From the NCBI GenBank assembly GCA_947172415.1, contig OX359190.1:868001-932000 (forward strand): a stretch of DNA of 64,000 bases. The letters run 5' to 3'. This DNA comes from Chondrosia reniformis. Lineage: Eukaryota > Porifera > Demospongiae > Chondrillida > Chondrillidae. The position numbers were made by a program, and so were the translations under genes. Within the stretch, counting starts at the first letter, position 1; the number at the start of each line of letters is the position of its first letter. Shown here piece after piece: positions 1 through 57,600 of the stretch. The notes below the pieces were generated by a model that saw nothing but the letters and a program-made list of their open reading frames with translations, had not been told where the DNA came from and ran no database searches.

Positions 1-803
1 ATTATATTTACAGTATGTACATTCATCGTAAATCTCTCACTCATTCTCACTAATTTTTGTTCCATAAAGGTTTTGTAATACATACACCCTCCCTGCATGG
101 CCCTGGAAATGTATACCCCCTGCTAGTGACTTGTAAACCCACCATGGGTTGGGCTATTTCTGACTGATTTTTTTTTTTTCAGAATAGCATGTCACATTAA
201 TAAAAATCATTATTATTATTATTATTATTATACACTTTATGGAAAACAGCGAGGAAACAATATAGGATGTGAGAAGGAAACATGACTTTGAAATAAAGAG
301 TACATATATACAACAGATCAAGTATATATGCTGCTTCCTTCTCCATGCATACATATTCTTCCATATTGTCACTAAACTTGGCTCTGTCATCCTGTAGTTG
401 TGCAATTCTGATTTCACTTATCATCATAGCATGGCTCAGTGCAATTAACTCCGGATCCCTTAGTTCACACTTAGTATATTGTCACTTGTACTGTATATAG
501 TCTATAAAACATTTGGCCCTTTCTAATAGAACACATTGTACAAACGATATCTGCGGTAGGTTTACGTTCCGTATGAAGCGTAACGGAGCGTTCTGCGGCG
601 AACTTATGGCAAAAAGTATGCGAACTTTCCTATAATTTGCGGGTGTCAGAATATGGTTTCAGATATTTCGGTACTCCATATAGGCTACAGCTTTAAAGAA
701 AGGCGATCAATTGGTTAAGCTTCAGCGAGGAGAGAAACGTTAACGTTAACATATACATGTATATATAGTTCGGTGACGTGAAATCAAAGATAAGATCAGG
801 ATC
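1..803. other. Intergenic, upstream of receptor copy 1
   Basis: AT-rich sequence with an (ATT)n microsatellite at about 207-231. No convincing coding exon on either strand. The last ~200 bp before the ATG at 804 presumably hold the promoter, but no clear TATA box stands out. Confidence 0.5.
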
Positions 804-2436: not shown

Positions 2437-2585
2437 TGTCATCAAGAAGACAAAGATTCCCAGGATTGCTGATGAAGGGTGGAATTCCCAGAAATAGCTG
2501 TCTGACCCAGTGGAGAAAGAGAAGACTCTTGTATCCTCATCCAAAGCACTGACTAGGTTTAGCTCCCTAGCATGTAGCGTGTCTG
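2437..2585 (+). repeat. Dispersed repeat A with hammerhead-like core
   Basis: Contains GCTGATGAAGGGTGG, CCCAGAAATAGCTGTCTG, then CTCTTGTATCCTCATCC. The 3' end is shortened relative to other copies. Confidence 0.75.
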
Positions 2586-14744: not shown

Positions 14745-15055
14745 ACATGGCCTAATGGAGAAGAAGAAAGAAAAGAAAAGAAAAGACAGCAATTGAGAAA
14801 TCCCATTTATTAATAAGACAGTTAATCTGTAAGTTTACAGTGTAAACACATTATCCCTGTTTTACATTATTGTTCCAAATGTTGCCAAGAAACAAATACC
14901 TGGTAGCTATGGAAACTTATTCAATGTTGTATGTACAGTTTGGCAAATAACAATAATATCTTCATCCAAAGCTCTCTTCAGGTTTAGTTCCCCTATAGGA
15001 TTTTTTACAGAGTAGGCATAGCATGTAGGAAAATGGTGTAATAGATTTTTTATGA
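14745..15055 (+). repeat. Repeat A interrupted by a 160-bp block
   Basis: The 5' part ends near 14787 and the 3' part (ATCTTCATCCAAAGCTCTC...) resumes at about 14955; the intervening block duplicates 13817-13972. Confidence 0.7.
14788..14951 (+). repeat. ~155-bp duplicated block, copy 2, inside a repeat A copy
   Basis: Second copy of the block at 13817. It sits between the two halves of a repeat A element (14745-14787 and 14952-15055), so it was inserted into, or recombined with, that element. Confidence 0.8.
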
Positions 15056-24265: not shown

Positions 24266-27200
24266 TCAAACCATTGTTTCACCTTCTGGTTGGGAAGGAT
24301 CTTCACTGTCCATGTACTTCTTAAGCAGCCTCCTCTGAACAGGAGTCATTTCGGACAAGTAGGGATCCACTTGGCTACCCAGTACTTTGCAGGTCACAGA
24401 GAGTGTCCTGACGGTCAGCTTACGGCAGGAGGGTTCTGAGTGGTGGTACATCTGGGGGGAGTAGGAAGAAGACAAGACAAGCCTTTGAAGAGAAGAGGGA
24501 GGGGCTGGAGAATGGGGAGGGGCTGGAGAATGGGGAGGGGCCGGAGAATGGGGAGGGGCTGGAGAATGGGGAGGGGCTGGAGAATGGGGAGGGGCTGGAG
24601 GATGGGGAGGGGCTGGAGAATGGGGAGGGGCTGGAGAATGGGGAGGGGCCGGAGAATGGGACTAGAGGATAGAGAGTGGACTTCAAGCAATGGCGTAATG
24701 ACCTGTGACTTGACATAAACAGATACTCACTTTCAACAATGCCTTCATCAAATCATCTTTGTGTACACTTAATACAATCTTATCACAATTGGGAACAGTC
24801 TTACTAAGAAGCTCAAGAGCGTGCAACAAGGGCACTCCTTCCTCCTCAGTCACATGCCGGATGACAACAGGGAGAACGTGGCGTGGCTGGGCATTAGTAG
24901 CAAAACACTTTACAACTTTAGAGAGTTCATTTGAAAACTAAGTAGGGAAAGATTAAGCATATAAAATTAGTCACGGTCAGTAATTCATGATATGATATAC
25001 AAGTACCAGTAATGGGCCTCTGAAGCAGGTAATCGACTATTCAGAGGTCTTATAATGCCTATAGTAGCTAATCACTGATCTAATCAACTAAACAAAGTCA
25101 GTCAGTTAATATGAAGTGTGAGTAATCGCTGGATCTCCCAGCCAAAAGATTCTGGTCACTTGGCTGGTTTGGCGTAATAACTTCCTATGATTACTCACTT
25201 CTTATAGTGGTAACATGCCACTTCAAGTGTATATATAAGGTGCTTCGGGTGTATATTAAGGTTTGTTACCTCCGGATCCCTGCATGATTTGAACACTTTT
25301 GTGACGATCAGTTCTGTGACGTTGTTCAATACCTGTGGTTCAATTTTTATTACCTCCCTCAAAGCAGCCAGAGCTAGACCTTTGACCTCTGAATTTCGAC
25401 CCTGTATCTGCTCCATCAGAATGTGCAGCACTTTATTGCAATGTCTCTTCCAATTGTACTTCTCTGGCGACTCGCACAAGCGTAATAGCTGAAGGAGAGC
25501 TTTCTTGTGAACTTCACTACATATGTAGACATGAAGGACAGAGAATGATCTAACAATATCAGTATACGACATAGGCACTGGTCAAACTATCCTGGTATAT
25601 ACACTACCTAGAAGGAGCAACCCTTAACATGGGTATGTGTGGTTTTTAAGGGTTCGTGTGGCCTTTATAGGTACGTGTGGTCTTTATAGGTAGGCGTGGT
25701 TTTTATGAGTAGGTGTGGTTTTCATGAGTAGGCGTGGTTTTCATGAGTAGGCGTGGTTTTCATGAGTAGGCGTGGCATGAATGCTTCCACATAGATGCTC
25801 AAGCTATAAGTATGCAACATTTAAGTGAGTACGAGACGTGTGACATACCTATCTTGTTCAGCTGCTGTGAGCTGTCGCAATACACGATCCAAATGATCTG
25901 ATGATGGGTCTAAAGAGGCGGACAGTGAAAGACCAATTCGACATGATTGCAACACACTTGAGATAGTGATGAAATCACTTAATCTAGTACAATTACATAA
26001 AGTATGTGTGTGGTAGTCATTAACTAATCTCAATAAATCTTACAGCTCTACATAATTCTATAAAGGCAACTTCATTACAATATTTATCACTTGACTAGTT
26101 ATAAATTTAAATACATGCCAAGGATTCACAGAAGATCAAGATAAAGAAAAGACAAAGACTCCCAGGATCACTGATGAAGGGTGGAATTCCCAGAAACGGC
26201 TGTCTGAACCAGTGGAGAAGAAGATGAAAGAAGGGAAAAGAAGGAAAAAAAGACTCTTGTATCTTCATTCAAAGCTCTCTTCAGGTTTATTTCCCCTATA
26301 GGCTCTTTAACAGAAGAGGCATAGCATGTAGGAAAATGGTATCTTAGATTTTTCATATAACTTATAAACACAAATAAGTCTTGCAGCAACTCCACAACTA
26401 ATCAGATGAACTTACAATTATGTCCTTCCAGATTCAGTGCCAGTTTATCAGCATAATATTTAGGCAGAAACTCTTGCCTTGTCTTATTTGACAACTTTGG
26501 CCCATAGTCACTTTTAGCAGTGTTTCCATGGTTACTTGGGGGATTCCCCTTGATTATCTGCTTGTTTGATAGGGAGTGGTCTGACCTACTAGACTTCATT
26601 TTAGATTGGAGGGTGGGAATGTGAGATGTGGGCGGGGCTACATCAGAGACACGCCCATTCCCTGAATGGTGACCATCTGTCATAACAGCAGAGGAATACA
26701 AATCTAATACATTCATAGACTCCCAGGATCACTGATGAAGGGTGGAATTTCCAGAAACAGCTGTCTGGCCCAGTGGAGAAGAAGATGAAAGAAGGGAAAA
26801 GAAGAAAGAAAGACTCCTGTATCTTCATCCAAAGCTCTCTCCAGGTTTAGTTCCCCTATAGGCTCTTTTACAGAATAGGCACAGCATGTAGGAAAATGGT
26901 ATCTTAGATTTTTCATTCATAGCAGCAAAAAGTGAGAAAAAGAATGAGAAGATGCAGAAATGAGTTAACTCACTCAATTTGTGATCTGCTCCATTACTGA
27001 CTATTACTGTGTCTACTTGCAAGGAAGCCATATTGGAGGGTGTGGTACTTCTGTAATCCTTCTGTCCCTTGGACCAAGTGTGTCTTCTTACCGGAAGAGC
27101 ACTGCGGGACCTTCCAGAACTCCTCCTCCGAGTGACCAGCTCGTCTGCTGTCATCTTACGCTCTCTGTAAGACGAGGCTCTCTTTTGTAGGCGTGGCGAG

Positions 27201-28772: not shown

Positions 28773-31700
28773 TTATCCTTTGAGAATTCCTCTTTCAATT
28801 CGATGTCTCTTCAGTCGTATGTTTACCTAATTGAAATATACAGAATAATAATGATATTAAAATTACAACTCAATTTAGCATCAGCTGTCATAATGTAATT
28901 AAAAGCACTTTGTTGAATTAACAAGATTACTAATATTTCCCCTTTCACTTCTCATGCATGGTTGGAATAATTGAACTGATTGAGATACTTGTGGTTTGTT
29001 TATCAATGCACATGTAGGTTAGCCACACTGAAAGGTCGTTATTAGACATGTTTAGTAGAAGGTGAGAGAGGAAAAGAAGAAAGAAAAGACTCCTGTATCT
29101 TCATCCAAAGCTCTCTTCAGGTTTAGTTCCCCTATAGGCTCTTTTACAGGCATAGCATGTAGGAAAATGGTGTATTAGATTTTTCATGTAAGGAATCATA
29201 GAAACACCTACACAATGTTGGTAGCCATGGAAACCAAAAATAAACTAAAAATATGATGTGCTCAGCATTACATAGTTACCTCTTTAATCAGCTCTTCATA
29301 GAGAGAATTTGGAGGAGCATCTAACCATTTCATACTGCTAGGGTCACCCAAATCTTTCTCCTTATTTGGACATGCTCTGGTCTTTAAAGTGTTACCATGA
29401 ACAGAACTGATCTCTGGTCTACTGTTTAATAAACAACTAGTAGCCTCCTGGTCTCTTATTAAGAGGGATTTCTTAGACTGACAACTAGTGGTATCCTGGT
29501 CTCTTATTAAGAGGGCCTTCTTAAACTGACAACTAGTAGCCTCCTGGTCTCTTTTTAAGAGGGATTTCTTAGACTGACAATTAGTAGCCTCCTGGTCTCT
29601 TATTAAGAGGGATTTCTTAGACTGACAACTAGTAGCCTCCTGGTTTCTTATTAAGAAGACTTCTGAAAGAGGGCTTCTCAAGGGTTTCTTGTCTCTAGTG
29701 GTTTCCTTCAATGAAGGTTCTTCCTCTTTGTTAGGAGATTTAGCTGGAACGCAATCATACTTGCAGTCTCGTCTCCAGATATCCCTCAATGTGGCAGGAG
29801 GGGAGGTGGGATGAGAGGAAAGTATTGAGTCTGGAAGCTTTCTAGTTATAATATTTCTCCTTCCTTCCTTGTCAACATTAGTGACTGTCTTGTTAAGAAA
29901 AATAGTTTCAGTGATAGTAATTGGCCCATCGATTGGTGCTGCCATGGTAACCACATCACCAAAAGTATCACCTTTCAATTGGTCACTTTCAAATCTGCCT
30001 TGTAAGTCACATATGCTGACATGTGCAGGTTTGTGAGATGGGGTGAGTGCTTGCTGGATGGGATGGTTACCATGACTACCAGTAGAAGGCATCAGCAGCT
30101 TGTCTGGTGAAGTGTATTGAACTCCGGACACTCTACACACAAGAATAATCAAACACACCATTTTTCTTACATGCTACATCTACATTAGAATAAAGGCCTA
30201 TAGGGAACTAAATCTAGTGAGAGCTTTGGATGAGGATACAAGAGTTTTCTCCTTCTCCTTCTCTTCTCCACTGGGCAAGACATCTGTTTCTGGGAATTCA
30301 ACCCTTCATCAGTGACCCTGGGAATCTTTGTCGTCTTCTTGATCCTTTGCTTTGTGAGTCCTTGGCTCTCTATACATTCATTAGTCATCACACATTAAAA
30401 AACAAGTAATCCTATATCCATGAGATATGAAGTTTATTGAGCAACAGCAACATTAAATCTTTGGAATAGAATGTTTCGACCCGTAGGTCTTCATCAGCAA
30501 TATAAGACCTACGGGTTGAAACGTTCTATTCCAAAGATTTAATGTTGCTGTACGTTGCTCAATAAACTTCATATCTTATCATGATCACGACAAATAAGCT
30601 CTATCACTTCATATTATACATGCATGTGTAATTCAAAACACTCCTCCTCGCATCATCATGATTAAGTTACGTAGATCAGATAAATATTCATTACATTTTC
30701 TTTCTCTTGTGAGAGCTTTCAGAAGACCAAGAAGTGAGTGATCTTCTCTTTAGTGGTACCTGCTTAGCAGCACCTCTGTGAGTTGTGGGGTGAGATTCAC
30801 CTAACACTGGATTCCTCAAAGCTAACGGCTATAAAATGAAATCAATCAATCAATCAATGTGACAGTGTTTTCCTATAAATAATATTACTTAATTGTCTTA
30901 CAGTTATAAATAACAATTAACATTCTATCTTATCCCCTTCGTTCTCTATTTAATGTAACACACCATTTTCTTACATGCTACATCTACTTTAGAATAAAGG
31001 CCTATAGGGAACTAAACCTAGTGAGAGCTTTTGATGGGAATACAAGAATTGTCTTACAGTTATAAATAACACTTAATAATTATCATTATATTTTATATGT
31101 TCTCTATTTATTGATAAAACAATTGTTTCTCTTCGGCAGGATGAAAGCACTACGTATATAATAGTACTCTACAAATGGAAATAGGCTTTGGTAACACATT
31201 GACTTATCTTTGGAAAGGGTCATCTCTTAACTTTGGGAGCATCTAGAGATGCAGTTTTTCTGATTCTTCTTTCTGCCAAACGTTTTGACCCTGGGGGTCT
31301 TCTTCAGTGACAGAAAAACTGCGTCTCTAGATGCTCCCAAAGTCAAAAGATGACCCTTTTCAAAGATAAGTTCGACACAGTTAGAAGAAATCCTTATTCT
31401 AACATTGACTTATGACAAGTGAGATTAATGAGCTTTCTGTAGCCAATCGAAACAATCAAATATTTCAGGACATTTGGTCCGTAGACCTTCTTAAGTTGAT
31501 AAAAGCACTAAATTATTACACCTTAAATAAACAATCTGATTGATGGGGTTAAAATGTGATGTAAAATGACGTCATGAATAACAATTAGTGAGATGTTAAC
31601 AGTAAAATCAGTACATTGACTTATCCTCCAGGGTCTCCCTCTTAACCTACCACTTACACACTAGTGACTTCAGAAAGTCAATTTGAAGATTCAACTAGTA

Positions 31701-34700: not shown

Positions 34701-37700
34701 CGTATGCATTAATACAATAGATAGAGGAACAGAAGAATAAAGAGAAGACTCTTGTATCCTCATCCAAAGCTCTCACTAGGTTTAGTTCCCTATAAGCTTG
34801 TTAGTATAGAATAGATATGGCATGTAAGAAAATGGTGTGTTAGATTGTTCATACATAAATACACACACAAACTTACGATTTTTCATTGATCATACTATTT
34901 GGCAAGGCACTGATTTTAACATTGTCCAAGTCATTGGTGAAGAGATTTGGCATGGAACAGATGGACAGCCATTTTAACCTTTCCGACGTTACTCCTATCC
35001 AGCACATCAATGTCTGAGCTAACCTGTAGAGAGAATGTATAATACATATAAAGGCTACCTCTCTATAAAGACTGCTCCTTTACAGAGACTACCTCTCTAT
35101 AAAGACTGCTCTTAAACAGAGGCTACCTCTCTATAAAGACCACTCCTATACAGAGGCTACCTCTCTATAAAGACTGCTCCTATACAGAGACTACCTCTCT
35201 ATAAAGACTGCTCCTATACAGAGGCTACCTCTCTATAAAGACTGCTCCTATACAGAGGCTACCTCTCTATAAAGACTGATCCTATACAGAGACTACCTCT
35301 CTATAAAGACTGCTCCTATACAGAGGCTACCTCTCTATAAAGACTGCTCCTATACAGAGGCTACCTCTCTATAAAGACTGATCCTATACAGAGACTACCT
35401 CTCTATAAAGGTCTTACTTAATTAATAGTGGTTCTTTTCCTAGTTTGTCAACTCCAATCACAATACGTCCTCCATCATGTTTGTCAAGGAATTCCTGTGC
35501 TGTTGCTATAACAACATCAGTTGCCTCTAACTGGACACAGGAACAACATGTTACATCATACGTAAATGATATACTGTACTACCTACCTACACATGTTAAA
35601 TAATATATTGAATTTTCAGTATATTAAGCGCCACACATTCCATTAAAAGTATGGATTCTAAATTTATTAATGTTGTAAATTACAACTATTACAAACAAAA
35701 TAAAAGGAAATTGAAATATGCGTACCACATCCTCAGCTACTTACTCGTGATGGAAAGTAACAAGCAGGGTCATTATAAGTGTTGTCCAGATAAAGAATGT
35801 CAATTTCCTTTCTTCCTCGCATGAATGGATACAGAAAAGACTTTCCGAGTGAACATCCTTCATATCTACCATATGAGCAAAAATAATCTAATTTCTTCCA
35901 TGCTACGTACATCTACATTAGAATAAAGGTCTATAGGGAACTAAAACTAGTGAGAACTTTGGATGAGGATACAAGAGTTTTCTCCTTCTACTTCTCTACA
36001 CACATACATACAAACAAGTGAACAAGTACGTACGTACATTATCTTTCTCTCTCCACTCTATAACACTAAGGGGGGAGGGTGGGGGAGGGTAAAGGAGGGG
36101 CGACTATATGGAGAGATATACCATGAAGTTCAAGTTTCAGTTCAAACAGAAATTGAAATATTTTATGATCAATCTCCAATTGGTACTTAAAAAGGATGTT
36201 AAAGCTATTAATTAATTAACTCCTCTAATTAACAATTTCCTCCTCATTATTAAAACATATGTACGTAGTTCATTTTCAACAGAACCATCCCATGATTATG
36301 AGGGATAGGATGGAATGTCAGAATAAGTGGTACGCATGTACATACCTGAAGTCTCCACTGTACAGAATGGTGCCAAAACTGCCTTCAAAGAGAAACATGG
36401 CCGATCCTGGACAGTGCATTGCGTCATAGGCTGTCACTACAAAACTAGTTTGTACTCCCCCACCTCCCTCGACATAGATCGTAGCGGCCTCCTCGTACTC
36501 CAGTTCCACCTACATACATGTGAACACAACATTGACTTTCATACCTAAGTACCTACGTACCTACTCCATATTCTACTGAAAACAGTAACGCTACCATATA
36601 ATGCACAATGCAAATAAGTGGATATTGAAAAATGAAAAGTTTATTAAACAATCAACAGGATGTGAGCACATCCTTTGTAAGCGTCCTATTTACAAAGACG
36701 GCAACCTTAAATATTCATGGAAAGTAAAAGGTGTTGTGAATAAAATTGAAAGTGCTGAGAAGTGTCACATGGTAAGGTAGAAAGGTCAACTCTGTAACCA
36801 TGGTAACAAAATAGACCTCTTCACTGAAGAACACTAACAGATATTGGAAGAGAAGATAAATCTGTCCTGAACACACACCCCACAGCTCATGGTCAAAAAG
36901 TCAAAGGATGGACCATTCTAAAGATACAATTGAAAGAAATCCTTATTTGACTCAGTTTATAAGAAATCCTTATTACACAGTGGAAGTACATGGAACTGGT
37001 TACACTACTAAGGTAGCTTACTACATTAACAATAACAAATAGATATACATAGAACTGTTTACACTACTAAGGTAGCTTACTACATAAACAATAACAACTA
37101 CGCAGCTATATACACAAAAGTCCCCAAGTACTGAGGAATGTTCAGGAATTCCTACTAAGGGTGTAACAGAGGAAGTGCACTCCATATAAGGAGGTGTGAA
37201 GGAAGTGGCCCTGTGATCCTCCTGATGACCACATCCTGGTTATAATCAATATAATTCATTGATTGGGGCGTAACAGGTATTGCAATATAAACATACTTAA
37301 ACATACACAGGCTTGTACTATCAAGGACTTAACAGCACCTACAGGATGTAGTAAATACTCCTCCGCACTCGCTGCTGACGAGGGGGCCATTGGGAGGTAC
37401 CCTTTAGAAAGGCCAGTCAACCAGCTTGCCCCTAACTCTCCCATGTCCCTCAGCACTCATCTTATCTTGGTTGTGTAATATGTGGGAGTTATTTTAGGGG
37501 AAGCAGAGGACATTTGAAAAAGACATTAAAAGACATTTGAAACATTAAACCATTGTTGAATATAGTACTGTTTTATTGGACAATCTATCTCACCATCAAG
37601 TAGATGAAACTACCAATGATTGCAACATTTCACCATCTTGGTATTTAACACATATTGAACTAGGTAGGTTGCCATTAAATATAGTACTACAATGTATCCC

Positions 37701-40265
37701 CTCCTGATGTGATAATTTAAAAAAATGTGATGGGGGTGTGGCACTTGGGGTGTGTGGCACTTGGGGTGTGTGGCACTTGGGGTGTGTGGCACTTGGGGTG
37801 TGTGGCACTTGGGGTGTGTCCTTAGACAAATACCATTCCCACTTAGAGTAAACAGAATATATAGAATTTTATTATTTACACATTTTTCACAAACATACGT
37901 ACCTATTAAACTAGGTACACTTCACTCTTATTCTATGATACCACACCAGCTGCCCAAACCACATCCTATGATTGTTCACCAAGTATAACTTCACTATTAG
38001 ATAATGAAGATAATTTCTACTGTAGTCAAGACCACAAATTAAGTCACTAGGAAACTAGAATAACAATTTACAATAATATTATATGTACATATACACATAT
38101 ACATACATTATGTTAATTATGTATTCCGGAGGTCTACTTGAGGGTGTAACTGATCTAGATATAGGCGACTCCTTATAAGGGAGGTGTCCACTCTGTGATC
38201 CTCCCGACCACATCCTGGGGGGGAGGCCAGGGGACACACCTACGTTCGTATATCCCATAGTCTCATTTGGGAATTAAAAGGTTGGATGGGTGTGGCAAAA
38301 CAGGTTTACTTTGAAAGAAGATAATTCAATTAAACATTCCCAAATGCTGAGTGTGTATATTTAACCTGTACATGTTTATAACCTATATGTGCATATTAGT
38401 TGGTGGAGAAGAAGGGAGAAAACTCTTGTATCCTCATCCAAAGCTTTCACTAGGTTTAGTTCCCTATAGGCATGAAAAATCTAAGATACCATTTTCCTAC
38501 ATGCTATATGCCTATTCTGTAAAAGACCCTATAGGGGAACTAAACCTGAAGAGAGCTTTGGATGAAGATACAGGAGTCCTTTCTTCCTTCTTTTCCCTTC
38601 TTTTATCTTCTTCTCCACTGGGTCAGACAGCATGTTTTTCTAACGTAGATGTAGCATGTAAGAAAGTAAGCAATAATGATATATATTTAGGAGTATGGTG
38701 TTTCAAACTGTCCATTATAAGAGCGCCTACAACAACAATAGGCTCAAAGAAGCGATTAAAAGTTCAGTCAGGGGTAACGCTTCAAGGGTAGCAGGAATGA
38801 TAGCCATTTCCTGCCATCTTTGCCATGACAACCACCCACACAATTGTTGTGGTCGGGAAAGGTCACGCTTTACTAGTACTAGTACATGCTTAAATCATGA
38901 TCTAGTGAAACACGCTGGAATCATGACCATTAACTTGTTTATCTGAGAACAACAGTTAATGGTTTACCAGCAATCACGACTTGATCATGACAATAGGCAC
39001 CTTAATAAACCACCGTTGCACTGACAATCCTGCACTGGTTCTACAATACAATAAAGTGTATCTGAAATTGGTCATACATGTACGTATCTAGGGGTATCTA
39101 GGGGGGGGGGAGTGTCATCCTTGTTTATTTATTTATTTATTCATTTATACAGGGAACAGTGGAAAATGTCCGACACGGGTGGGGGGTATTAAACCATGTT
39201 TAAAATGATAATTAACCTGGTAACTATAATGTATACTGAAACATATAAATAAGATAAATAAGATAAGAGAGGTAATTAGATTTGGTAAATTATTAGGACT
39301 TTTAACACACATCTTTGATCAATTCACTTCAAAAATAATCACTACAACGTTTCACCCTTCTCGGGCTACTTCAGGTAATAATAATAATAATAATTTCCAC
39401 TATATTATAAGAGAGGTAAATATATTGGATAATTATACAAACTGTAAGAACTGTGATATTCAAATAAACTCACAAGTTGTTTTTTTCCGAACCCAAACTT
39501 GTGGTTCAAGAGCTTTGCAGTTATTGATGTACAGTAGATTCGATGAGGGAACTGTTTGGTGAGTCCTTGAATGTGGTCTATGCAGTAGGAAGGAGGCAAA
39601 GGTAACAGTAAAAGACACTCCAATGTGTTGATGGATTGATGTCCTTTAAATTGTCAATAGAGAGGAAAACAAATACATACCAAACAGGGTTCTTTCCCGG
39701 GCGCTAGAATGAACATTGGTGCACTAAATATGTTTGTCCCCTTCTTTTCTATTATCATCATTTTGCCCCCCTTGCTAAATACTCTGAAAGAAACACTGTC
39801 ATATGGACAATCTAGAACACCAAATGTACATACAAATGGTATACACAGAGAAAACTGAGGATTGATAGAAGAATTCCAGACATCTCCAGGGTAACTAATG
39901 AAGGGTGGTATTCCAAGAAACAGCTATCTGGCCCAGTGAAGCAAAAGAATAAAGAGAAGACTCTTGTATCCTCATCCAAAGCTCTCATTAAATTAGTTCC
40001 CTATAGGCCATTTTAATGTAGAATGGATGTATAGCTTTGTTTATTATATTATTCACACATAAATGTACATACAGTTGGAAAGATGAGATATATTTGGTGC
40101 TCGGGAGTGTAGAAACTCACCCGCATGCATATGAGTGAGGAAACGAGCACATTTTGATGGAATATTCTGCAAAGTCCAAAGGTCGACGACGATTGGAGTG
40201 TTTGCTATAACATGTCCGTTGCCTTTACCCATAATAAACACTCCAGTTCTCCCTCCGTTCACCAT
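28773..40265 (-). CDS. DCLRE1B: DCLRE1B/Apollo (SNM1B) 5' exonuclease, metallo-beta-lactamase/beta-CASP
   Basis: Eleven phase-consistent exons: 40121-40265, 39474-39577, 36346-36509, 35745-35865, 35418-35530, 34877-35023, 32511-32564, 31738-31948, 30695-30828, 29280-30132 and 28773-28826; 699 aa against 532 in human. Apollo trims telomere ends and acts in crosslink repair. Seen: [10 protein letters not shown], the metal motif HMHADH (His45, His47, Asp49, His50) restored across the exon 1-2 junction, [13 protein letters not shown] with His115, GDFR with Asp136, LYLDNT, DKLGKE, VILPTAR, and VPYSDHSSF in the beta-CASP part. All metal ligands I can place are present. The long C-terminal exon carries five copies of a 16-aa repeat ([16 protein letters not shown]) not seen in vertebrates; no clear YxLxP TRF-binding motif is visible. 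Its 5' end is head-to-head with the bZIP gene. Confidence 0.93.
29060..29188 (+). repeat. Repeat A, 3' half
   Basis: Starts in the purine-rich middle (AAAAGAAGAAAGAAAAGACTCC); no hammerhead-like core. Confidence 0.7.
29450..29665 (-). repeat. DCLRE1B: Coding 48-bp repeat in Apollo exon 10
   Basis: About five units with AGCCTCCTGGTCTCTTATTA on the + strand encode the 16-aa [16 protein letters not shown] repeats; all keep frame. Confidence 0.85.
30160..30372 (-). repeat. Repeat A with hammerhead-like core, Apollo intron 9
   Basis: On the minus strand GGGTCA-CTGATGA is followed by a GGG..CCC hairpin, GAAACAGATGTC and TTGCCC. Confidence 0.8.
30421..30577. repeat. Repeat B fold-back, Apollo intron 9
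   Basis: Near-perfect inverted arms (GAAGTTTATTGAGCAACAGC and complement). The centre carries a full minus-strand core, CTGATGA, A, GACC-TACG-GGTC, GAAACATTC. Confidence 0.9.
30957..31045 (-). repeat. Repeat A, terminal fragment
   Basis: CACACCATTTTCTTACATGC through TAAACCTAGTGAGAGC on the + strand. Confidence 0.65.
31201..31404. repeat. Repeat C fold-back, Apollo intron 8
   Basis: Long inverted arms (GGGAGCATCTAGAGATGCAG and complement). The centre on the minus strand reads CTGAAGA, A, GACC..GGGTC, AAAACGTTTGG, a CTGANGA-type hammerhead-like core with one core change. Confidence 0.88.
31975..32490 (-). repeat. GGATGGGTGGAGTGAC minisatellite, Apollo intron 7
   Basis: About thirty variant units of GGATGGGTGGAGTGACG fill the space between two short Apollo exons and give a spurious long Ser/His/Pro frame on the minus strand. 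Confidence 0.92.
32735..33065. repeat. 47-bp tandem repeat, Apollo intron 6
   Basis: About seven units containing CATAATATACAGTTCATACC and CTATGTATTGGATATAAAAC. Confidence 0.92.
33245..33330 (+). repeat. Repeat B half-element, Apollo intron 6
   Basis: GCTGATGAAGACATACGGGTC followed by GAAATGTCC and TTTTGTTGCAGATAG. Confidence 0.7.
33965..34145. repeat. ~83-bp tandem duplication, Apollo intron 6
   Basis: Two near-identical units beginning GAGAAAGAATGTTGCTAAAC and ending with ACAGTTGTTTATATAC. Confidence 0.88.
34722..34852 (+). repeat. Repeat A, 3' half
   Basis: ACTCTTGTATCCTCATCCAA to TTAGATTGTTCAT, Apollo intron 6. Confidence 0.7.
35040..35408. repeat. 34-bp minisatellite, Apollo intron 5
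   Basis: About eleven units containing GGCTACCTCTCTATAAAGAC. It ends ten bases short of the exon 5 donor boundary at 35418. Confidence 0.93.
35900..35995 (-). repeat. Repeat A, fragment
   Basis: CATGCTACGTACATCTAC to GGATACAAGAGTTTTCTCC, Apollo intron 3. Confidence 0.65.
37735..37820. repeat. 16-bp minisatellite
   Basis: Five perfect units of TGTGGCACTTGGGGTG. Confidence 0.93.
38400..38636. repeat. Two repeat A halves in opposite orientation
   Basis: A + strand fragment (38400-38475) is directly followed by a minus-strand one (about 38477-38636) that reaches CTCCACTGGGTCAGACAGC. Confidence 0.7.
39870..40070 (+). repeat. Repeat A with degenerate core, Apollo intron 1
   Basis: GGGTAACTAATGAAGGGTGG then AAGAAACAGCTATCTGGCCC; the core CTGATGA has become CTAATGA. 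Confidence 0.75.
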
Positions 40266-42620: not shown

Positions 42621-45600
42621 TTAAGGTTTCAAAGACTGTTTAGCCTTGTCTAAAATCTCCTTCTGCATTCTTGGATACTGTGGGTATCCTTCAAGGACTT
42701 TGTAGCAAACTTGCATGGATTTAACATAGGAATGGAGTTTCAGGTAGTTGAAAGCCAAACGGTATCCTATACACACAAAATGCACACAAAATGCACACAA
42801 AATGTATACAAAATGCATACAAAATGCATACAAATGCACACAAAATGCACACAAATGCACACAAAATGCACACAAAATGCATACAAAATGCACACCTATA
42901 TTGGGGTCCCTCTGAAAGGAGTACAGCCACGCTTGCTCATATCGTTCGGCTGCTTCCTTAACATTGTGTTCCCTTTCAGAGATGTATCCCATATATTCCC
43001 AAGCTCTGAAACATGACTACAGGGTAGTACATATGGTACAGTACATAGTATATTTAATCCAGAGGTATTATTGAGCAACAGCAACATAAATTATTGATAA
43101 TAGGACGTTTCAACCTGTAGGTCTTCATCAGCAAACATGATAAATGATAGATACATAGTATATATATATGATAAATACATAGTATATATATATATGGTAC
43201 AGTACGGCATATTCAGTTATTAACTATTATTGTGTTTTGGAACATGCACTCACTCGATTATGATGAAGACACCTTTTCAGTGGATCCATTGCCAAATCAA
43301 ACTTGTTATTCTACAAAACACAGATAACACAACTTTTATACAAATAATCTAATCTCATTCAGGGCTGCATGCAGAGCTTGGGGACAGGGGGGGACGGGGG
43401 GGGGGGAGTAAATGAAAATTTTCAAAATTTAGGGGGGAGGCAATGGTGTTAGGGTGTCGAAGCAGTTTAGGAGATTCCCAAAAGACTGGGAGGGGGGCAA
43501 AATCAATTCCAGCCAGCCCCTGCCATTTCCCCATGGCTAAGAACATACGTATGTAGAATAGTTCCCTATAGGCCTTTACTCTAAAGAAGATTCCAAGGAT
43601 TCACAGAAGATCAAGATAAAGAAAAAGACTCCCAGGATCACTGATGAAGGGTGGAATTCCCAGAAACAGCTGTCTGACCCAGTGGAGAAGAAGATGAAAG
43701 AAGGGAAAAGAAGGAAGAAAAGACTCCTGTGTCTTCATCCAAAGCTCTCTTCAGGTTTAGTTCCCCTATAGGCTCTTTTACAGAATAGGCATATAGCATG
43801 TAGGAAAATGGTATCTTAGATTTTTCGTGCAGCATATAAGAAAGATGATGTATTAGATTATTTAGACACAGTTTAACAACTATTAGACACAGCAGAGGTT
43901 GCTGACTTGCATGTGGATGTCTGCAAGGAGCAGCCAACTCTTTTCAAAATCTTCAGCTTCTGCAGAGTTCCAGGCAATCTTGAGGACTCGCTTGAGAGTA
44001 TTACGAGCCTTTGTGGTCTGTTTCTGAAGCACTTGAGCTGTAGCTAACCCAAGAATTGCTGAAACATTCTCCTTCTGAAAGTATGACAAAGAGTGACCAG
44101 TCAATTTGGAGATCCCTGAGGAACATGTACGTACATTAGGAACAGATTCGGAAGTGTTTCCATGGCTACCGGAGGCACTTCAAATTATTTAATAAATGGA
44201 ACCGGCCAATCCACTCTTCTCTTTCATTTGGCCTGGCATTTCATTGGCTTAAACTATAACTACCTACTGCGCACATCTAAATATCAACCTGTTAATCATA
44301 ACCACACTGACTGGTTCCTTAAGCCATGTCCACCCCTTTAACAAATAGTTACGTACCTCTCTAGTGGCTATTTCTGCAAACATGGTATGTGCCTTCTCAT
44401 TGGCTGATTTGCTCTTTGGTGCCGATAGCATGATAATGTAGGCCTCCATAATCTGTTGTCTGACGGCGGATCTGGGGTGGTTAGGTTGTGTAGTCTCTCT
44501 CATCAGCCGCTCGGCAGTGAAGAGTGCCATCTTATCCGCCTCCATCTGCTCCACTGAAGCACTGCTTCCTTCAGCACCTCTCATCACCTCCGAACCTGAG
44601 GACAGGAAAATGGTGAATATTCGAGTGTGACATCTGGTGAGTCATCCCAACCAATCAAGTAAATACAAGAAACACATTATAAGTATATATATTTGACATT
44701 TACATACGTACGTTCACATTTACATGTAAGGAAAAAAAAAAGATTTGATATTTCTGTGGCTGCTGTTGAAATGCAGAATTTATACAAACACTTTTTCCAC
44801 TTTAGAGTAGATGTAAATGAAAACTAAATTTAAGTGTCATTGAGTTCATCTTTAGTCTTTTGAGTGTCTAGAGAGGCAGTTTGTCTTAGTAATAGGACAT
44901 TTTACCCCTGAGTGTCTAAACCACCTCAAAGATAAGTTTGGCTCAGTTACAAGAAACCCCTATCAATTCATCATGCAGCTCATCTCCTCAGTAGGAGGTC
45001 GCTGTTACATACAGTAAAAATACTTTAAAATTTTGAGTTATTATAGGAATATGGACTGTCCTGCATAATAATATATAGGCAAAATCATTAATTGTCGTCT
45101 CTCCATCTCTTTCTTGGCCGTCCTCCCTATCATCTAAATAAAAATAGGTCTTCATTTTTCAAGTTAGATTTTGCATGTACGTAGTCTTGATGGTAGTGAT
45201 TGAAACATACGTATATTTATTATTCATTTACATTTATTTTACAGGTATCAGCTCGGAGATATATACTCACCTATCACTTCGTTGTCGGGATTAATGCAAA
45301 TATGGATCATGTTGAAGAGGCATCTCTCGCCCCAGTCACTGTCCTTCCTAGACTGATTGAAGCTTTGGAGAGCCTTGGCCGGCTGATTTACGTACCTGTG
45401 AAAGCAGAGAATCCGTCCTACACATGTTAGCTGCATACCACATACATAAGTACGTAGGGTTACAGTACTATAATGTGCTCTATAGGTTTGCCCCAAGTAA
45501 CTACGTAGTCTAAGAAAATTGTGTTTCTAAATCTATCCTTGCTTCCTTAGCTTCATGGACATGATTCAGTAATTTTTGGGTCGGCTGTCCAGACCGGACA

Positions 45601-48600: not shown

Positions 48601-51600
48601 ATACTGTAATACTATTAATTGAGTACATACATATAATACTATTAATTGAGTTATTGCCTAATAGAATAAGGATTTTATAAAATTATTGAAAGATGAACCA
48701 TCTAAAAGATAAGTTACTGTCTATTCAAATATGCTTGTTACTATTACTTACATTATCATTATTTCCTATTTAATATAACGTACTAATTGAGTACATACAT
48801 ATAATACTATTAATGCAGCACATACATATGTATAAATAATCTAACACACTATTTCTTCTTATATACGTATATACGTATGTACTACATCTATTTTAGAAAG
48901 AAGGGCTATAGGGAACCAAGAGCTTTGGATGAGGATACAAGAGTCTTCTCCTTCTCCACTGGGACAGATAGGAATTCCACCCGTCATCAATGGCCCAGCG
49001 AGTTTTTGTCTTCTTCTTGATCTTTGTGAGTCCTTGGTATGAATAATATTTACGTATTATCATGTGTTATATAGTGAAAGTATAGTCCCTGGTTTAGTTC
49101 ACTTGTCACACTATACATGTACACACAGCTTTGTCTCAGACTGGGCTATTTTGACTTGTTATTTCTGAGCTAGATACATAGCTTTCCTAACTTTCCTGAA
49201 TGCCTCAGCAGTACGTACCTTATTGTAGTTGTGTGCTTTGATCAGGGCCTGCCCTATTTTGCTGGCTAGTAGCTTCACCTTGGGATTCCGCTTGAAGGCT
49301 TCTTCAAACACTTCAACGGCCTTCTCCGGCTCCTGGATGGTCATGTACGCTTCACCCAACATCAGAGCAGATTGGACATTTGGCAGCTTCTGTGATAACT
49401 CCCTAAACACAAGTGTTGTGATAGAGATAATGGACTCAAGGTGACATATGGAGTATGTATATTTGGCAGCTTCTGTGATAACTCTCTAAACACAAGTGTT
49501 GTGATAGAGATAATGGACTCAAGGTGACATATTGAGTATGTATATTTGGCAGCTTCTGTGATAACTCCCTAAACACAAGTGTTGTGATAGAGATAATGGA
49601 CTCAAAGGTGACTTGTCTACATATAAGTACTGTACATAGGTTCCACTGAACTTGTCTACATATAAGTATTTGTGTAAAATACTCACTTGAAACAGTTAAT
49701 GTACAACTTGCTATTTTTCCTTTGTTTCAAGTAAATGGAAGCCATTTTCTTCCTTGCTTCAACAAAACTAGGTTCATCAGGTGTGACTTGATTAAGAATT
49801 TGAAGTGCCTCGTCAGCATTACCATGGTGAATGAGAAGATCTGCATTAGCAATCTGCACCCTACAAAATGGTGTAACTCAGCTGGACACCATCTTTTATT
49901 TGAGAACTAATCAACATGAATTAAACCACAACTGTTTAATCTTGCATACTTATTATACTTGCTCAGATCTTTCAATGAAGGAAGTGCTTGTTGTGATCAT
50001 TATGAGAATAGAGCCTTATTAAGCGTCAGCAACATGAATTTACTAATTCTGGACATTTCGACCCAGAGATCTTCATCAGCTATATTGCTGATGAAGACCT
50101 CCGGATACTATACTAAGAATTCCTTGTTGTTGACACTTAATAACTTTCTAGCTCACTATACGTATATATATAAATACATATAAATACTGTATAAGACACC
50201 ATTTTTCTGATCACATGACTAACATGAATATGAGGCCAATTAATTACTCTATTTCCGATTGGATGTATTTCTTGGTCCAAATTCAAATTTTAATTAATAA
50301 AACAATTCTTAACAAGGAAAAAAATAGGGGAACTTCAAGCTAAAGCTGATCTTAAAACATCGATGTCATCATCATTACCTCATTAGCTCATTGTGCTCCT
50401 CAGGGGACATGAGTGGGCAGGGGTAATACCCAGAGTTTAATGATGATAAATTCTTAACAACTTTGCAATTGTTTGAACAAGGAAATTATTAACCGTTTCC
50501 TTGTTCATACTATTTTGCCTACATAATAATATACTAAAATTAAATATTTCAGCTCCATTTAGAGCCTAGCCTTATCTGTCTCCCACTATGCACGTCTAAA
50601 CAACTGAACAATGAAAAGGGAGTTATGAACAAGGAAATTATTAACCGTTGTTCATATTATTTTGCCTACATAATAATATTGATGTCTGTTATAGAGTTTT
50701 CTGAGTTTTAGGTTTGACGTTTTTAAATGTGTTTCAGCCAATCCTTTGTCGAGAGATAAAGAATTGGTAGCTTGGTTACTCTAAAGAATTGCTACCCAGT
50801 GCTACTGATGAGGAGTGGTATTCTCCAAAAAGGCCTTATAGCAGAGTGGTAAACTTGAGTTTTATGACGATTTTTACTACGAATTTGCAATTGTTGCTTC
50901 TATACTGAACACTCAACATATGTATGTTTGATACTGTACATGTTAAGGTTTAGAGCTAATGATATTCATCACCTCATCTCATGCGGTGTCCCGGAGAAGT
51001 GCTCAACAGCTGCCTGCATGACTTTGCTGGCTTCACTGGGCTGGTTTAGCAGGAGATGTGTGTCGACCAGTTCAAGATATATGGTCACTTGGTCAGTTTG
51101 ACTGAGGTCTTGCAACGAACCATTAACTTGCTTAAACTTTGGATCTAAACCAACGGCATGTACACTGAATAAAGTAGCTACCTCTCTAGTGTGACCATCT
51201 CTATAAAGCAGCTACCTCTCTAATGTGACCACCTCTCTAGTGTGACCACCTCTATAAAGTAGCTACCTCTCTAATGGGACCACCTCTATAAAGTAGCTAC
51301 CTCTCTAATGTCTTACTAAGTATGTATGCATGTACGTACGTACCTTCTTTTGATGAAATTAGTTTAATTGCAGTCTGCAGTGCATCCAAAGCTAATGAGT
51401 AAGACCCTTGCAATTTATTATTTTTACCTCTCACAAGGTGATAGATTGGATGGTTTTGGATCTGCATACAATATATGACACATTTGTAAGTACAAAAAAG
51501 GGTCCCTTACTGCTCATCAGACCCGCCCCTTACTGCTCAACAGACCCGCCCCTTACTGCTCATCAGACCCGCCCCTTACTGCTCATCAGACCCGCCCCCT

Positions 51601-54600
51601 ACTGCTCATCAGACCCGCCCCTTACTGCTCATCAGACCCGCCCCCTACTGCTCATCAGACCCGGCCCTTACTGCTCATCAGACCCGCCCCTTACTGCTCA
51701 TCAGACCCGCCCCCTACTGCTCATCAGACCCGCCCCCTACTGCTCATCAGACCCGCCCCTTACTGCTCATCAGACCCGCCCCCTACTGCTCATCAGACCC
51801 GCCCCTTCTAATCTAATCTTGTCATTCTAATCACCTCAAAATTGTAACTCAGTCCAATCTCAAGTACTTGAGAACAGAGTTTGTAGTCCTCCTGGTGGAG
51901 GTGGATCCGAGCCATCAGTAGGTAGGAGGGCGTGTGAGTGGGGTTGGACTCCAAACATTTCTCCAGAAGCTGCTGGGCAGATTCAGAATCACCTAGGCAA
52001 CACACATCATAAAAGGAAATCGTGAATTGATTAGGAGTCTAGTAGTATGAACTACTTCTGTACTTACATCATGTTAAATGGCACAGCAGGATCATTATTA
52101 CACACCATATACAAGTTTACTTTAGGGGGTAGGGTGGGGACATTTGCACAATCTTGAACAAAGTCAAATTGCCAATTTTTAATAATAAACTATGTGCACA
52201 ATTGCCCCAATCATTATACATACGTACGTATGTGTTATTCTTCTACTATTGTGATATTTTCACAGAGAAACCCTTATATTATATACGTACATATTACCAG
52301 CCATTATATCTACGTACATACGTACGTACGTACTTATATTATATATGTATATATTACCAGCTATTACATATACGTATCTACATACGTACGTACTTATATT
52401 ATACATATTACCAGCCATTATATCTACATACGTATGTACATAGGTAAAATTGTCTACTGTACTCACCAGCCAAATATTTGATTCTGGCCAGCAGGTAAGT
52501 GGCGTCCTGAATGCCCTGGGCAGTCTCAATCAGAGGAGCCAACATTCCGGCGGCCTTCTTCAGGACATTTGGTGCTGCTTCTCCCGGCTTGAGCGGTTCT
52601 GTGTCAGCTTGACACAACATCAATCTAACCATGCGGATGATGAAATCTGGGTTTAGTATTTCGTAATACTCCCAACTGATTGGAACACCCTTCAGGAAGA
52701 TAGGAAGTTATATGAGATAATTAATATGCTGACATAACACTTAATGATAATAGTAATAGTAATAATGATAATAGTACGAATAATGTCATTGACACACACA
52801 CGCGTACGTACGTATAGAGGTACCTTGAGTTGTGCGGAGTGGACCTGCAGAGAGGGGGAGCAAGGGGTGGCATTTGTCCCCCAATTGATTCCCCCCCCTA
52901 GACTTTAGGGATGTACGTAATATACCTAAATGTTGAAAATTTTCATTTCCCCCCCTCTCCCTGGCCCCAAGTTCTGCATGCAGCCCTGGTCAGTGAAACA
53001 CACACATACGTACATATAAAGGTACATACCTTGAGTTGTGTGAAGTGGAGCTGGGCAGTTTCATCCAGAAGAGCTATAATCCTCTCCTTCTCCCTCAGCT
53101 GGTGGTGATCCAGAAGAGCAGCCAGGTAGGTCAGACTAGATTGCTTTCCAATGGACGAATGGAGCTCGTTTAGAAACTCCAACTGCTGTTCCGCCTCCGC
53201 AAAGTGTCCTTCCAGTATCTGACAGTGAATGAGACCAGTCAGAGCAGGGACACTAGTTTCATCCATTGTGAATGCCTCCTTGTACAGCTTCGTAGCCTCT
53301 TGTACATTCTCCTGCAGCAGGGCCTGGTAGGCCAGTTCTGTGGCATACTCTGGACTTCTTGGGACCAACGCCCTCGCCCTCTCCAACAGTGTTCCCGTCT
53401 GTTGAAGGATCAGAAGATTTTTACAGGACTACGCATGAAGAAAGAGAAGGAGCGTACGTATGTATACATATGTATACAATTTAAGTGTAATTCTGTATAA
53501 ACCCACCAATCTAGCAAGTGTAGTCGACAGTTTGAAATACAGTTTATGATTCTTTGGCTCAAATCTATCGACAAGATGGATCAGTTCGCCAATCTTAGCC
53601 GCTGCCTCATTGCCTCTCCTCTCATGAACTAGAAGATTAAGTACTTGACACTTGTGTGCTTCAAGACAGTTGATGTTATGGATCAGAATTCTATGAGCAT
53701 ACAAAACAGAAGCAGTGGTCTTCAATGGCCAGTTATGTACGTACATATGTACATAGATATACGTAGCTACATTTGAAATATACATATGTATGTACGTACG
53801 TACATACACATGAATAATTTAATACGTACACCATTTTTCTTAAATATTATTGTGCTTAGAGTAAGGAACTAAACCTAGTGAGAGCTTTGAATGAGGATAC
53901 AAGAGTTTTCTACTTGTCCACTTTGTCTTTTTGAGTCCTCTGCTGCAGGTATGTACACATAACGACCTGACTATGTATGAGATAGTAATTACATACCGTA
54001 TGCGTACAAATTTTTGCAGGACGTAAATTTTGTGATTTTCACGAATCAGCAAGGGTTCGTGAAAATAAAAACGTGAAAATTTCCCCATACCCAAGCCTTT
54101 CACGTGTGATGCAGAATGCCTGCGAAGACGATGAAGGATTACATTAAGACCGTAGACGTTTTTGTTAAGGACTTGTCATCAACGTCTGAGTTCTCCAGCT
54201 GCAGATGTTGATACCACGTGCACAAAAGGAGTCAATCTTCAGGCACACTCGGGGCTTTGCGAAAATGTTTTGCTAAAATCCCCAAAAATTCCGCTAAAAT
54301 TTATATGCATTACGGTACATACGTACGTACGTATAAACATACGTATTTGTGCACAAATTCAAATGAGTAAATAGTGTAATGGCAATCAAATACAAAGTAT
54401 ATGGTGAAAATCAGGACTGTAAGGAAATTTAATTTAGAATAAGGATTTCTTCTAACTGCATCAAACTTATCTTTTGAAAGGTTCATCTTTAAACTTTTGA
54501 ACGTCTAGAGAAGCAGTTGATAATAATCTCCAACTGTCAGATGTTTCAACCTCGAGGGTCTTCTTCAGTGAGTCAAGGACGAAACATCTGACAATCGGAA

Positions 54601-57600
54601 GACTACTGTACAGTGGGAAATTTTGTGGGAGAAAATTTTCTCCAATTTTGTGGATGGATTGCAATTTGCGAAAATTTCCCGCTATCTGGTATTACCAACT
54701 TCGTGTCTGTAGACGCTCAAAGATGAACCTTTTAAAGGATAAATTTTCGAGCCCAAATTTCATCTTAAGCAGGTGGGTTCAACTGTACTTGTGGTTTCAT
54801 TATAAGTGTACAGTTCATGCATATACGTACGTACCTCTGAATGGTCTCAGCGACCTGTTCCCACTCCTGCTGCGCCAGTAGTACTGCCAACTTGTCAGTC
54901 AGTGCCGGAAGGAAGGAGGGATAGGATACTATTGCTCTGTTCAGCAGCTCCAGGGACTGGTTGTAGTTTTCTCTGACATAATAGCACTTGGCTGAGCCAA
55001 TCAGAGCCATTACTGGTAAGGGGCTCTCCATACTGTATGAGTGGATGGGTGGATGAGTGGATGGATGAGTGAATGAGTGGGTGGGTGGATGAGTGGATGA
55101 GTGGGTGGATGCGTGGATGAGTGGGTGGATGAGTGGATGAATGGGTGGATGGATGAGTAGATGAGTGGGTGGATGCGTGGATGAGTGGGTGGGTGGATGA
55201 GTGGGTGGGTGGATGAGTGGGAGAATGGATGAGTGGGTGGATGGATGGACAACTTACGTACTTGTTTAAGACTTCTTCAAATATTTTATTTGCCTTCTTG
55301 ACAAAGGCTTCTCTGTTTGAAGTAAGATCAACCCACCCTCTCAATATCACTCCTTCCACAGAACTTGGGCTCTTCTTTAGCATCTTATCAACGTATTCTC
55401 TAGCTTTATCATTCTTCCCCAACAGCCAGAGAGTCATACTAGCAAAGTATAGAGCCTGGCCACGGTAGAGAGAAGTGAGGTGAGGTGAGAGAATGAAATT
55501 TTGAAGGCTTGCATGGAAAAATGAAATTTGTAAGTATATATGCACAACACACATAGTAAACGACACCTTTCAGTTATAACAGCGAGAGAATAAGAGAATG
55601 AATCCAAAATCCTGGCTATATGGCTATACGTATGGCTATATGGGTATATGGGTATATGGGTATATGGGTATATGGGTATATGGGTATATGGGTATATGGG
55701 TCTATGGGTATATGGGTCTATGGGTATATGGGTATATGGGTATATGGGTATATGGGTATATGGGTATATGGGTATATGGGTATATGGGTATATGGGTATA
55801 TGGGTATATGGGTATACCAGCGATTCTCACACTGAAACACTTATGTGAGCTTTGGGATATGTGTGTGATGAAGATTGGAGTTAGTGCTGAGATAAATTAG
55901 CAGTTGACTGAGGTCATGATCACCTTATCACTGCAAGTCTGCCTTCGAGATCGAACTTGACTTTCATACTTCTGGACTGCATCTCTGTCTGCAATAAACA
56001 AACAACAAAACAACAAATAAATAAGACAAACAACAAAACAACAAATAAATAAGACAAACAACAAAACAACAAATAAATAAGACAAACAACAAAACAACAA
56101 ATAAATAAGACAAACAACAAAACAACACATAAATAAGACAAACAACAAAACAACAAATAAATAAGACAAACAACAAAACAACAAATACATGCCAAGGATT
56201 CACAGAAGATTAAGATAAAGATAATGAAAATAACAAAGACTCCCAGGATCACTGATGAAGGGTGGAATTCCCGGAAACGGCAGTCTGACCCAGTGGAGAA
56301 GAAGATGAAGGAAAAAGAAGGAAGAAAAGACTCCTGTATCTTCATCCAAAGCTCTCTTCAGGTTTAGTTACTATTACGTATATGAATCACAATTGTTTTA
56401 TATAACAAGTGCATATACACATACACTGTTCATACATGCTGATACTGAAACCACAACCATTTTATATAACCACACAGACCTACCCACGACTTTGCATCTC
56501 TTGTGAGCTTGTATCAACAACAGAGGAACGCTGACAACAAGATGGTCCTTCTCTGATACTCCCTCCAGTTCTCTGATGGCCTCTGGTAGCTGCTCTACAC
56601 ACAACAAAAACAATAAACATCAACAAACTTAAGGACAAAGGTGATTCTACTTACACACAACAAAAAAATAAACATCAACAAACTTAAGGACAAAGGTGAT
56701 TCTACTTACACACAACAAAAACAATAAACATCAACAAACTTAGGGACAAAGGTGATTCTACTTACACACAACAAAAACAATAAACATCAACAAACTTAGG
56801 GACAAAGGTGATTCTACTTACACACAACAAAAACAATAAACATCAACAAACTTAGGGACAAAGGTGATTCTACTTACACACAACAAAAACAATAAACATC
56901 AACAAACTTAGGGACAAAGGTGATTCTACTTACACACAACAAACCTACCTATCTAAGAATACTGAAATACTATCAATCAATCATTCACTACTTCTTTAAC
57001 TGGGAGCCCCTTATACAAGCTACTTAACATACGTACTAATGGATGTCCTCTCAAATATATGAACTTTCCCATTGAACATTTCCTACTTACTTTCCAATCA
57101 TGTTTTTTATATGTTTTTTTTATGTATTTTTTACAATGATTTACAATATAATAATTGAATACTATATATAAATAAGGGAATTTTCAATCATATGACATTG
57201 TGTTGTATTTACTGACAGATTGATACATAGTACACATTATTTATAGGGGGTAAAACCCTTAGCCAATTTACAGTGGGCGGGGCCAGGTCAGGTACTTGAT
57301 AACCACTGCACTATACTACAGATTAAAAATCAAACCACATAGAGTGTCTACAATTATAAAGTGTTTCTAACCTTCCAGAACAAGAGCAAACGCCTTCCAA
57401 AATACTAGCACCGGATCCGATCCATACTTTTCGATAAACTGCAACACGGCTGTTTGGGCGTGCCGGTACAGACCCTCCCGAAGATAGTGCGAGATGACTC
57501 CCTACACACACGAGTACGAGGAAGATAAGTGTCGGCTTTTTGTAAGAATTATCTCGTAGTAATATTTTCAAGTTTTATTGGCTTACTACAGCCAACTGAT

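Follow-up and report, generated by a model that had tools for sequence, protein, structure and literature searches.

The window analysed here, that is, the whole 64,000-nucleotide stretch of the Chondrosia reniformis genome (contig OX359190.1, positions 868,001 to 932,000), contains a dispersed repeat, termed repeat A, of which a profile search recovered 19 copies or fragments, many of them 5'-truncated (Table 1). The hammerhead region is carried by 8 of the 19, and a degraded part of it by one more. All eight scattered copies in which a hammerhead-like core had been predicted were found in their places, with the parts in hammerhead order, and the description of the repeat as short, non-coding and high-copy is supported as well.

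Table 1. Repeat A copies and hammerhead motifs in the 64-kb window (coordinates of the window).
Feature	Repeat A positions	Hammerhead	Coordinates	Strand	Basis
Repeat A copy	31-171	core 2469-2508	2444..2569	+	
Repeat A fragment	153-226		6498..6571	-	
5'-truncated repeat A copy	alignment from 94		6727..6868	+	
Repeat A copy	40-230	11369-11413	11358..11545	+	
Repeat A fragment	145-245		14957..15054	+	
Full-length repeat A copy	1-244	from 26165	26117..26356	+	
Repeat A copy	38-244	26726-26771	26714..26916	+	
5'-truncated repeat A copy	101-246		29054..29189	+	
Full-length repeat A copy	-6 to 231	30273-30318	30140..30373	-	
Repeat A fragment	124-224		30952..31055	-	
5'-truncated repeat A copy	112-230		34733..34852	+	
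Repeat A fragment	112-209		35892..35993	-	
Repeat A fragment, adjoins minus-strand copy at 38471	112-176		38409..38471	+	
5'-truncated repeat A copy	84-245		38471..38631	-	
Repeat A copy	47-182	39889-39934, core CTAATGA	39886..40014	+	
Repeat A copy with named motif	2-245		43593..43829	+	alignment
Named hammerhead, stem I to stem I			43635..43680	+	pattern and sequence reading
Repeat A copy	2-230	degraded, 48971-48996	48832..49037	-	
Repeat A fragment	103-171		53862..53932	-	
Repeat A copy	1-177	56246-56291	56191..56369	+	

Three other features of the window were recorded. Two related plus-strand ORFs (1017-1928 and 8732-10090), whose products by eye combine a secreted, cysteine-rich N terminus with a kinase-like C terminus, are apparently duplicated receptor-kinase-type genes. 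A near-perfect inverted repeat of about 150 nt (31213-31360), which microRNA-hairpin models match on both strands below gathering scores, looks like a foldback or MITE-type repeat. Finally, an HDV-like ribozyme candidate lies at 17512-17593 (plus strand), where three Rfam models score below gathering (28.3, 27.6 and 22.9 bits against 50, 44 and 37, respectively); P1, P3, P4 and P2 (GUACUUCU/AGAAGUAC) can form by eye, and plain folding of this segment is no better than that of shuffles (z -0.63).

The named copy reads GGATCA CTGATGA A GGG TGGAATT CCC A GAAA CAGCTGTC^TGACCC, with the predicted cut (^) at 43674/43675. The general form of the repeat is GG(G/A)TCA-CTGATGA-A-GGG..CCC-A-GAAACAGCTGTC-TG(G/A)CCC, in which CUGANGA, GAAA and H17 stand in this order ahead of the cut, as in a minimal type I hammerhead, and cleavage is predicted after GUC, at position 89 of repeat A, the next base being 90. 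The pairing of GGGTCA with TGGCCC as stem I, as proposed beforehand, holds, with a single A.C mismatch in the named copy. The exact pattern CTGATGA-N(4-30)-GAAACAGCTGTC occurs twice in the window, versus no occurrence in 100 shuffles. When the genome was searched (117,379,552 bases in 15 contigs; the available text of PMC12181767 gives 117.37 Mb in 14 chromosomes plus the mitochondrion), CTGATGA and GAAACAGCTGTC separated by N6-26 were found 1041 times, a count that covers repeat A together with the families B and C described below, versus 0 for a reversed-pattern control.

The motif departs from the canonical structure at the base of stem II next to the core, where repeat A has A.A, which is no standard pair, and families B and C have G-C or G-U. 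The additional A that flanks stem II on either side, already noted in the original prediction, is confirmed and occurs in most copies. Individual copies also show an altered core: the one at 39889-39934 has CTAATGA and ATC, and in the one at 11369-11413 AAAAA replaces the GAAA context. An Rfam search of the window detected no hammerhead, either at gathering scores or with E up to 10, and repeat A of the element copy L062, described below, was likewise without a hammerhead match.

For the idea that the self-complementary stem III pairs between two copies, secondary structure prediction gave a divided result in the two subfamilies, A1 and A2. The cofold predicted for two A2 strands joins them through an 8-bp stem III and forms stems I and II as well; the A1 dimer did not cofold as a hammerhead. 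A1, the form nearest to the coding element, has an A.C mismatch in stem I in a hand alignment. The conservation of the core looked for under the original prediction was not found among the dispersed copies, where the core is not conserved beyond its flanks. Substitutions amount to 9/334 in the core versus 35/1398 in the flanks for A1, and to 13/252 versus 61/700 for A2, both comparisons being made with a GAAA window displaced by one base, so that AAAC was counted instead. The 'A2' alignment reference is a consensus mixing both subfamilies. The A1 core thus changes at about the flanking rate, as is expected of dead insertions.

Two sister families share the core. Family B has the form ACCACA-CTGATGA-GCCC..GGGC-GAAACAGCTGTC-TGTGGT, and family C the form GCCATA-CTGATGA-GTCC..GGAC-GAAACAGCTGTC-TATGGC. 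Members of these families match Rfam Hammerhead_1 at 41.6 (L016), 39.4 (L018), 37.1 (L014) and 34.6 bits (L032), the gathering score being 34; three further matches, one in L020 and two in units of L183, fall just under it with 32.2 bits each. No hammerhead was called by Rfam in L001-L006, among which are more degraded B and C loci. The same three stems, the 8-bp stem III between the two strands included, are predicted for the B and C dimers. In a hand alignment of 11 sequences, stems I and II differ between A, B, C and other Penelope-like elements (PLEs) and mostly re-pair, the exceptions being the A.A at the stem II base in A, the one A.C in A1 and outer mismatches in the PLE motifs. Covariation of stems I and II is seen between families and not within repeat A.

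It might be argued that the hammerhead likeness of repeat A is due to chance or that it is a dead relic, taking into account the lack of an Rfam match, the A.A at the stem II base and the dispersed copies without core conservation. However, B and C share core, spacing and stem III with repeat A and do match Hammerhead_1, the stems re-pair between families, and the footprints left by insertion ends, presented below, coincide with the predicted base. A chance or relic origin is consequently regarded as very unlikely.

Repeat A, about 245 nt long, forms the end module of the pseudo-LTR in a high-copy PLE that has a GIY-YIG endonuclease ahead of its reverse transcriptase (RT). A search for GIY-YIG gave 38 matches at 15 loci, among them a PLE copy (L038) with repeat A directly upstream of its ORF; in another PLE copy (L048) other sequence lies upstream of the ORF and repeat A is absent. 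A query starting at the repeat A junction gave 40 scored matches with 97-100% identity, and repeat A was found 5' of the PLE ORF in 10/10 copies fetched, with the A-derived sequence stopping at the same place, a figure that is selected, since the query began at that junction, and that includes one copy with the 3' half of A only (L052) and one whose junction was seen by coordinate only (L056). In the three copies read further (L061-L063), repeat A flanks the ORF on both sides (3/3), 3489-3501 nt apart, and sits within repeated ends of about 505-534 nt, as measured between L061 and L062. One of them, L063, is a partial tandem, so that both the pseudo-LTRs and the partial-tandem arrangement of PLEs are found here.

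The ORF of L062 encodes 997 aa, with GIY-YIG at residues 126-159 (22.2 bits, just below the Pfam cut-off of 22.6). The Pfam search of this ORF did not call the RT itself; its RT-like region, residues 609-938, can be aligned (E 1e-13) with the RT that Pfam recognises in L047. GIY-YIG is thus N-terminal to the RT, the endonuclease-first order of Naiad-type PLEs, of which this element is a candidate member by domain order. A TATATAA lies 30 nt upstream of position 1 of repeat A, which makes a transcription start at that position probable. The 3' end is largely constant, being reached by 81 of 100 fetched copies, and within the PLE more element sequence follows it, which fits an internal RT start. 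Degenerate ACTAGTACATACA-like repeats lie on both sides of L061, L062 and L063, a hint that the element may prefer such targets.

A second PLE group (L037, L039, L040, L045-L047) has GIY-YIG after the RT. In these six copies a hammerhead-like CTGANGA-A-stem II-GAAACGT occurs shortly downstream of the C-terminal GIY-YIG; the motif of L047 had no Rfam hammerhead match, and its dimer was not predicted to cofold as a hammerhead. The 5'-side extra A of stem II is common to these other PLE motifs, and the 3'-side one is special to repeat A.

The original prediction had related repeat A to metazoan retrozymes, and its size, non-coding nature, copy number and dimer-type hammerhead all fit a non-autonomous retrozyme spreading via small RNA circles made by the hammerhead. 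This reading is opposed by the fact that repeat A belongs to the pseudo-LTR of a coding PLE. Moreover, in the window (19 copies) and in the fetched sample (100 copies) repeat A occurs unit by unit, without tandems, its ends lying either at the putative start of transcription or inside the repeat, and the sole close pair (L029) consists of two unlike copies that are not joined head to tail. Retrozyme status was rejected for repeat A on account of the lack of tandem units and its flanking of a coding PLE, and such an origin appears extremely improbable. True tandem units are those of families B and C, with spacings of 358-363 nt in B and 350-354 nt in C (unit of 352 nt in L183). Both families show the retrozyme layout, in which every 150-400-nt unit of a tandem carries one hammerhead, so that the retrozyme-like elements of this genome are B and C and repeat A is not one of them. 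By eye, some C copies have inverted 5' segments, and the 3' end of one tandem C array (L183:1-1800) abuts a reverse-oriented repeat A, as if inserted there.

The 5' ends of repeat A insertions carry evidence for cleavage. In the window, the truncated copy at 6727..6868 starts, by eye, with the TGG immediately past the predicted cut (position 90), after which one base is lost. A sample of 100 copies was taken as the first 100 of 1730 genome places matching a pattern of the 3' half of A, the hammerhead not being consulted. Among them, 27 begin around the putative transcription start (-2 to 6), 15 begin upstream of that, and 9 begin exactly at 90, the first base past the predicted cut; other starts near the cut are at 89 (two copies), 91 (one), 92 (one) and 95 (four). 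The remaining TG dinucleotides account for a single start altogether among the 58 copies that start beyond position 8. Against uniform truncation over positions 10-130 (54 copies), the binomial P for the position-90 starts is 6.8e-10, or 1.4e-8 when L145 and L146, two of the nine copies, which have a common flank and represent one event, are counted as one.

Could the copies starting at 90 be descendants of one or a few amplified truncated sources, instead of products of repeated cleavage? They occur in both subfamilies (6 and 3), and in a tree of 89 rows, with few columns and a bootstrap that is not settled, a start at 89-91, shared by 12 rows, requires 10 changes, of which five or more are forced by well supported branches. 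The slight clustering in this tree (45 of 500 shuffles need equally few changes) and the common flanks of some copies, such as L145/L146 and the groups of three and four mentioned below, are in favour of amplification. However, at least five, and probably about 10, separate origins among the 12 rows, distributed over both subfamilies, speak against it, as does the fact that truncated copies are without the upstream TATA. Amplification from few sources is therefore considered highly improbable, and repeated cleavage is retained as the preferred reading.

The same junction was then inspected across the genome. Copies of TGRCCCAGTGGAGAAGAAG number 1789, of which 1590 have C at base 89 and 199 another base. 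In the copies with C at 89, base 88 is other than T in 34/1590; base 91 is other than G at 113 places, 33 of which belong to one short array. All 58 copies aligned through the site have C at 89 (58/58). Sixty non-C copies were fetched, out of 100 listed of the 199 places; they were selected for a base other than C at 89, and the places omitted were those read before (6), most of one array (7 of 8), a cluster of related loci (6), two others and the last 19. In 38 of these 60 copies the repeat starts at 90 with nothing A-like upstream, in 33 distinct contexts (including L191, which is doubtful), and in the other 22 A-like sequence lies upstream. Two groups of non-C copies, of three and four, share flanks. 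In 15 of the 33 contexts the flanking sequence terminates in CA, and this CA|TG preference indicates that the target has some part in shaping the junction. Short tandem arrays derived from the stretch just past the cut of A also showed up, as clusters of pattern hits, at G000:C2:756961-757399 and G000:C3:7259523-7260684, with steps of about 25 and 28-31 nt.

Ends at position 90 might also be generated by RT stopping at stable RNA structure, either the stem III dimer or stems I and II, without any cleavage. The cut adjoins paired regions, the motif of repeat A is non-canonical, and the 4/100 starts at 95, close to the base of stem I, may themselves be RT stops. However, an RT halted before stem III would retain the unpaired C89, so that starts at 89 should dominate, and two copies start at 89 and nine at 90 (n=100). 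In the genome-wide set, T88 is absent in just 34/1590 copies versus 199/1789 for C89. In addition, stem I is the first structure that the RT would meet, and it would block more strongly. RT stops are thus an unlikely source of the ends at 90, and we infer that those piled up at this base would derive from ribozyme cleavage. The original prediction had warned that the extra A beside stem II may lower activity; the ends at the cut suggest that repeat A may cleave anyway.

An equivalent footprint was looked for in the sister families. In family C, the alignment of 25 loci (L164-L183 plus five earlier loci, L020 and L164 being the same locus) contains none that starts clearly at its cut. Ends fall at unit positions 138-147 (GATGATGAT) in 15 of 24 informative loci and at 198-203 in 6 of 24; the starts nearest to the cut are those of L173 (unit position 348), L170 (346) and L169 (352, a poor match). 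For family B, a search for ends at the cut site gave 507 places with up to three mismatches versus 87 for the reversed control, counts that carry no information on a footprint, since only exact matches were listed. Taking into account the footprint at 90 in A and the lack of a clear cut start in family C, the footprint is shown for repeat A only.

According to the mechanism proposed here, transcription of the pseudo-LTR would yield an RNA with a minimal type I hammerhead in its first ~245 nt. Two hammerhead sequences, present in one tandem RNA or in two molecules, would pair by stem III, ACAGCUGU or, with G.U, ACGGCUGU, and the dimeric hammerhead would cut after GUC, at position 89 of A. Since a short transcript, with its single hammerhead, is unable to form stem III by itself, two RNAs or tandem copies would be required for cutting, and the dimer, as modelled by cofolding, would be the active form. 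We infer that RT initiates internally, at the 5' site, which would give rise to short solo insertions; the full ones would begin at the transcription start, and those copied from cut RNA exactly at 90. Judging from the insertion ends, the cleaved RNA has probably been used repeatedly as a template for retrotransposition. As a whole, this explanation, comprising a PLE pseudo-LTR module, a cut by a dimeric hammerhead and the copying of the cut RNA into insertions, is considered likely.

In R2 and related LINEs, a 5' HDV-like ribozyme cleaves itself and so sets the 5' end of the insertion. The sponge hammerhead has another fold, and it differs as well in that the R2 cut defines the 5' end of the element, whereas the cut of repeat A would define that of only a fraction of insertions. 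Minimal type I hammerheads were reportedly described in PLE pseudo-LTRs by Cervera & de la Pena in 2014 and by Lunse et al. in 2017. Among the titles and abstract beginnings searched, a scope that lay outside these two papers, no sponge hammerheads and no PLE insertion ends at a hammerhead cut were mentioned.

According to the available text of PMC7761336, PLE hammerheads occur in many animals, and their role is called a mystery. To judge from the same text, repeat A resembles them in having nearly no stem III loop, in its location in the pseudo-LTRs that flank an RT/GIY-YIG element on either side and in the dimer cutting expected of it. It differs in its 8-base self-complementary stem III and the A.A at the base of stem II, and the sponge element further differs in the location of the endonuclease ahead of the RT and in the base-exact cleavage footprints in its insertions. 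With metazoan retrozymes, as presented in the available texts of PMC7761336 and PMC4918200, there is a likeness in the type I hammerheads carried by small repeats, and B and C consist of tandem 350-363-nt units; unlike retrozymes, repeat A belongs to a coding element and is found in solitary units.

The closest comparison concerns the Poseidon element PAc of Anolis carolinensis, for which the available text of PMC11167929 reports that in vitro RT starts at fixed internal RNA sites, that the hammerhead cut only with protein, that cleavage is dispensable for insertion and that cut RNA ends did not appear in RNA-seq. The sponge element shares with PAc the combination of PLE, hammerhead and pseudo-LTRs, and the internal start proposed here has its counterpart in the fixed RT start sites of PAc. 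However, many repeat A insertions start at the predicted cut, unlike what that text describes for PAc, in which no cut ends were found.

It is likely, therefore, that this PLE hammerhead is active in vivo despite its A.A, and that its cut product is the template used for a share of the solo pseudo-LTR insertions; two RNAs, or tandem copies, being needed, dimerisation of the template would be sensed. The presence in one genome of PLE and retrozyme families sharing stem III agrees with the published proposal that retrozymes are mobilised by PLEs. Base-exact footprints in insertions offer another kind of evidence for cutting in vivo and for the copying back of cut RNA, and the mapping of insertion 5' ends makes the question of what these ribozymes do testable in any assembly.
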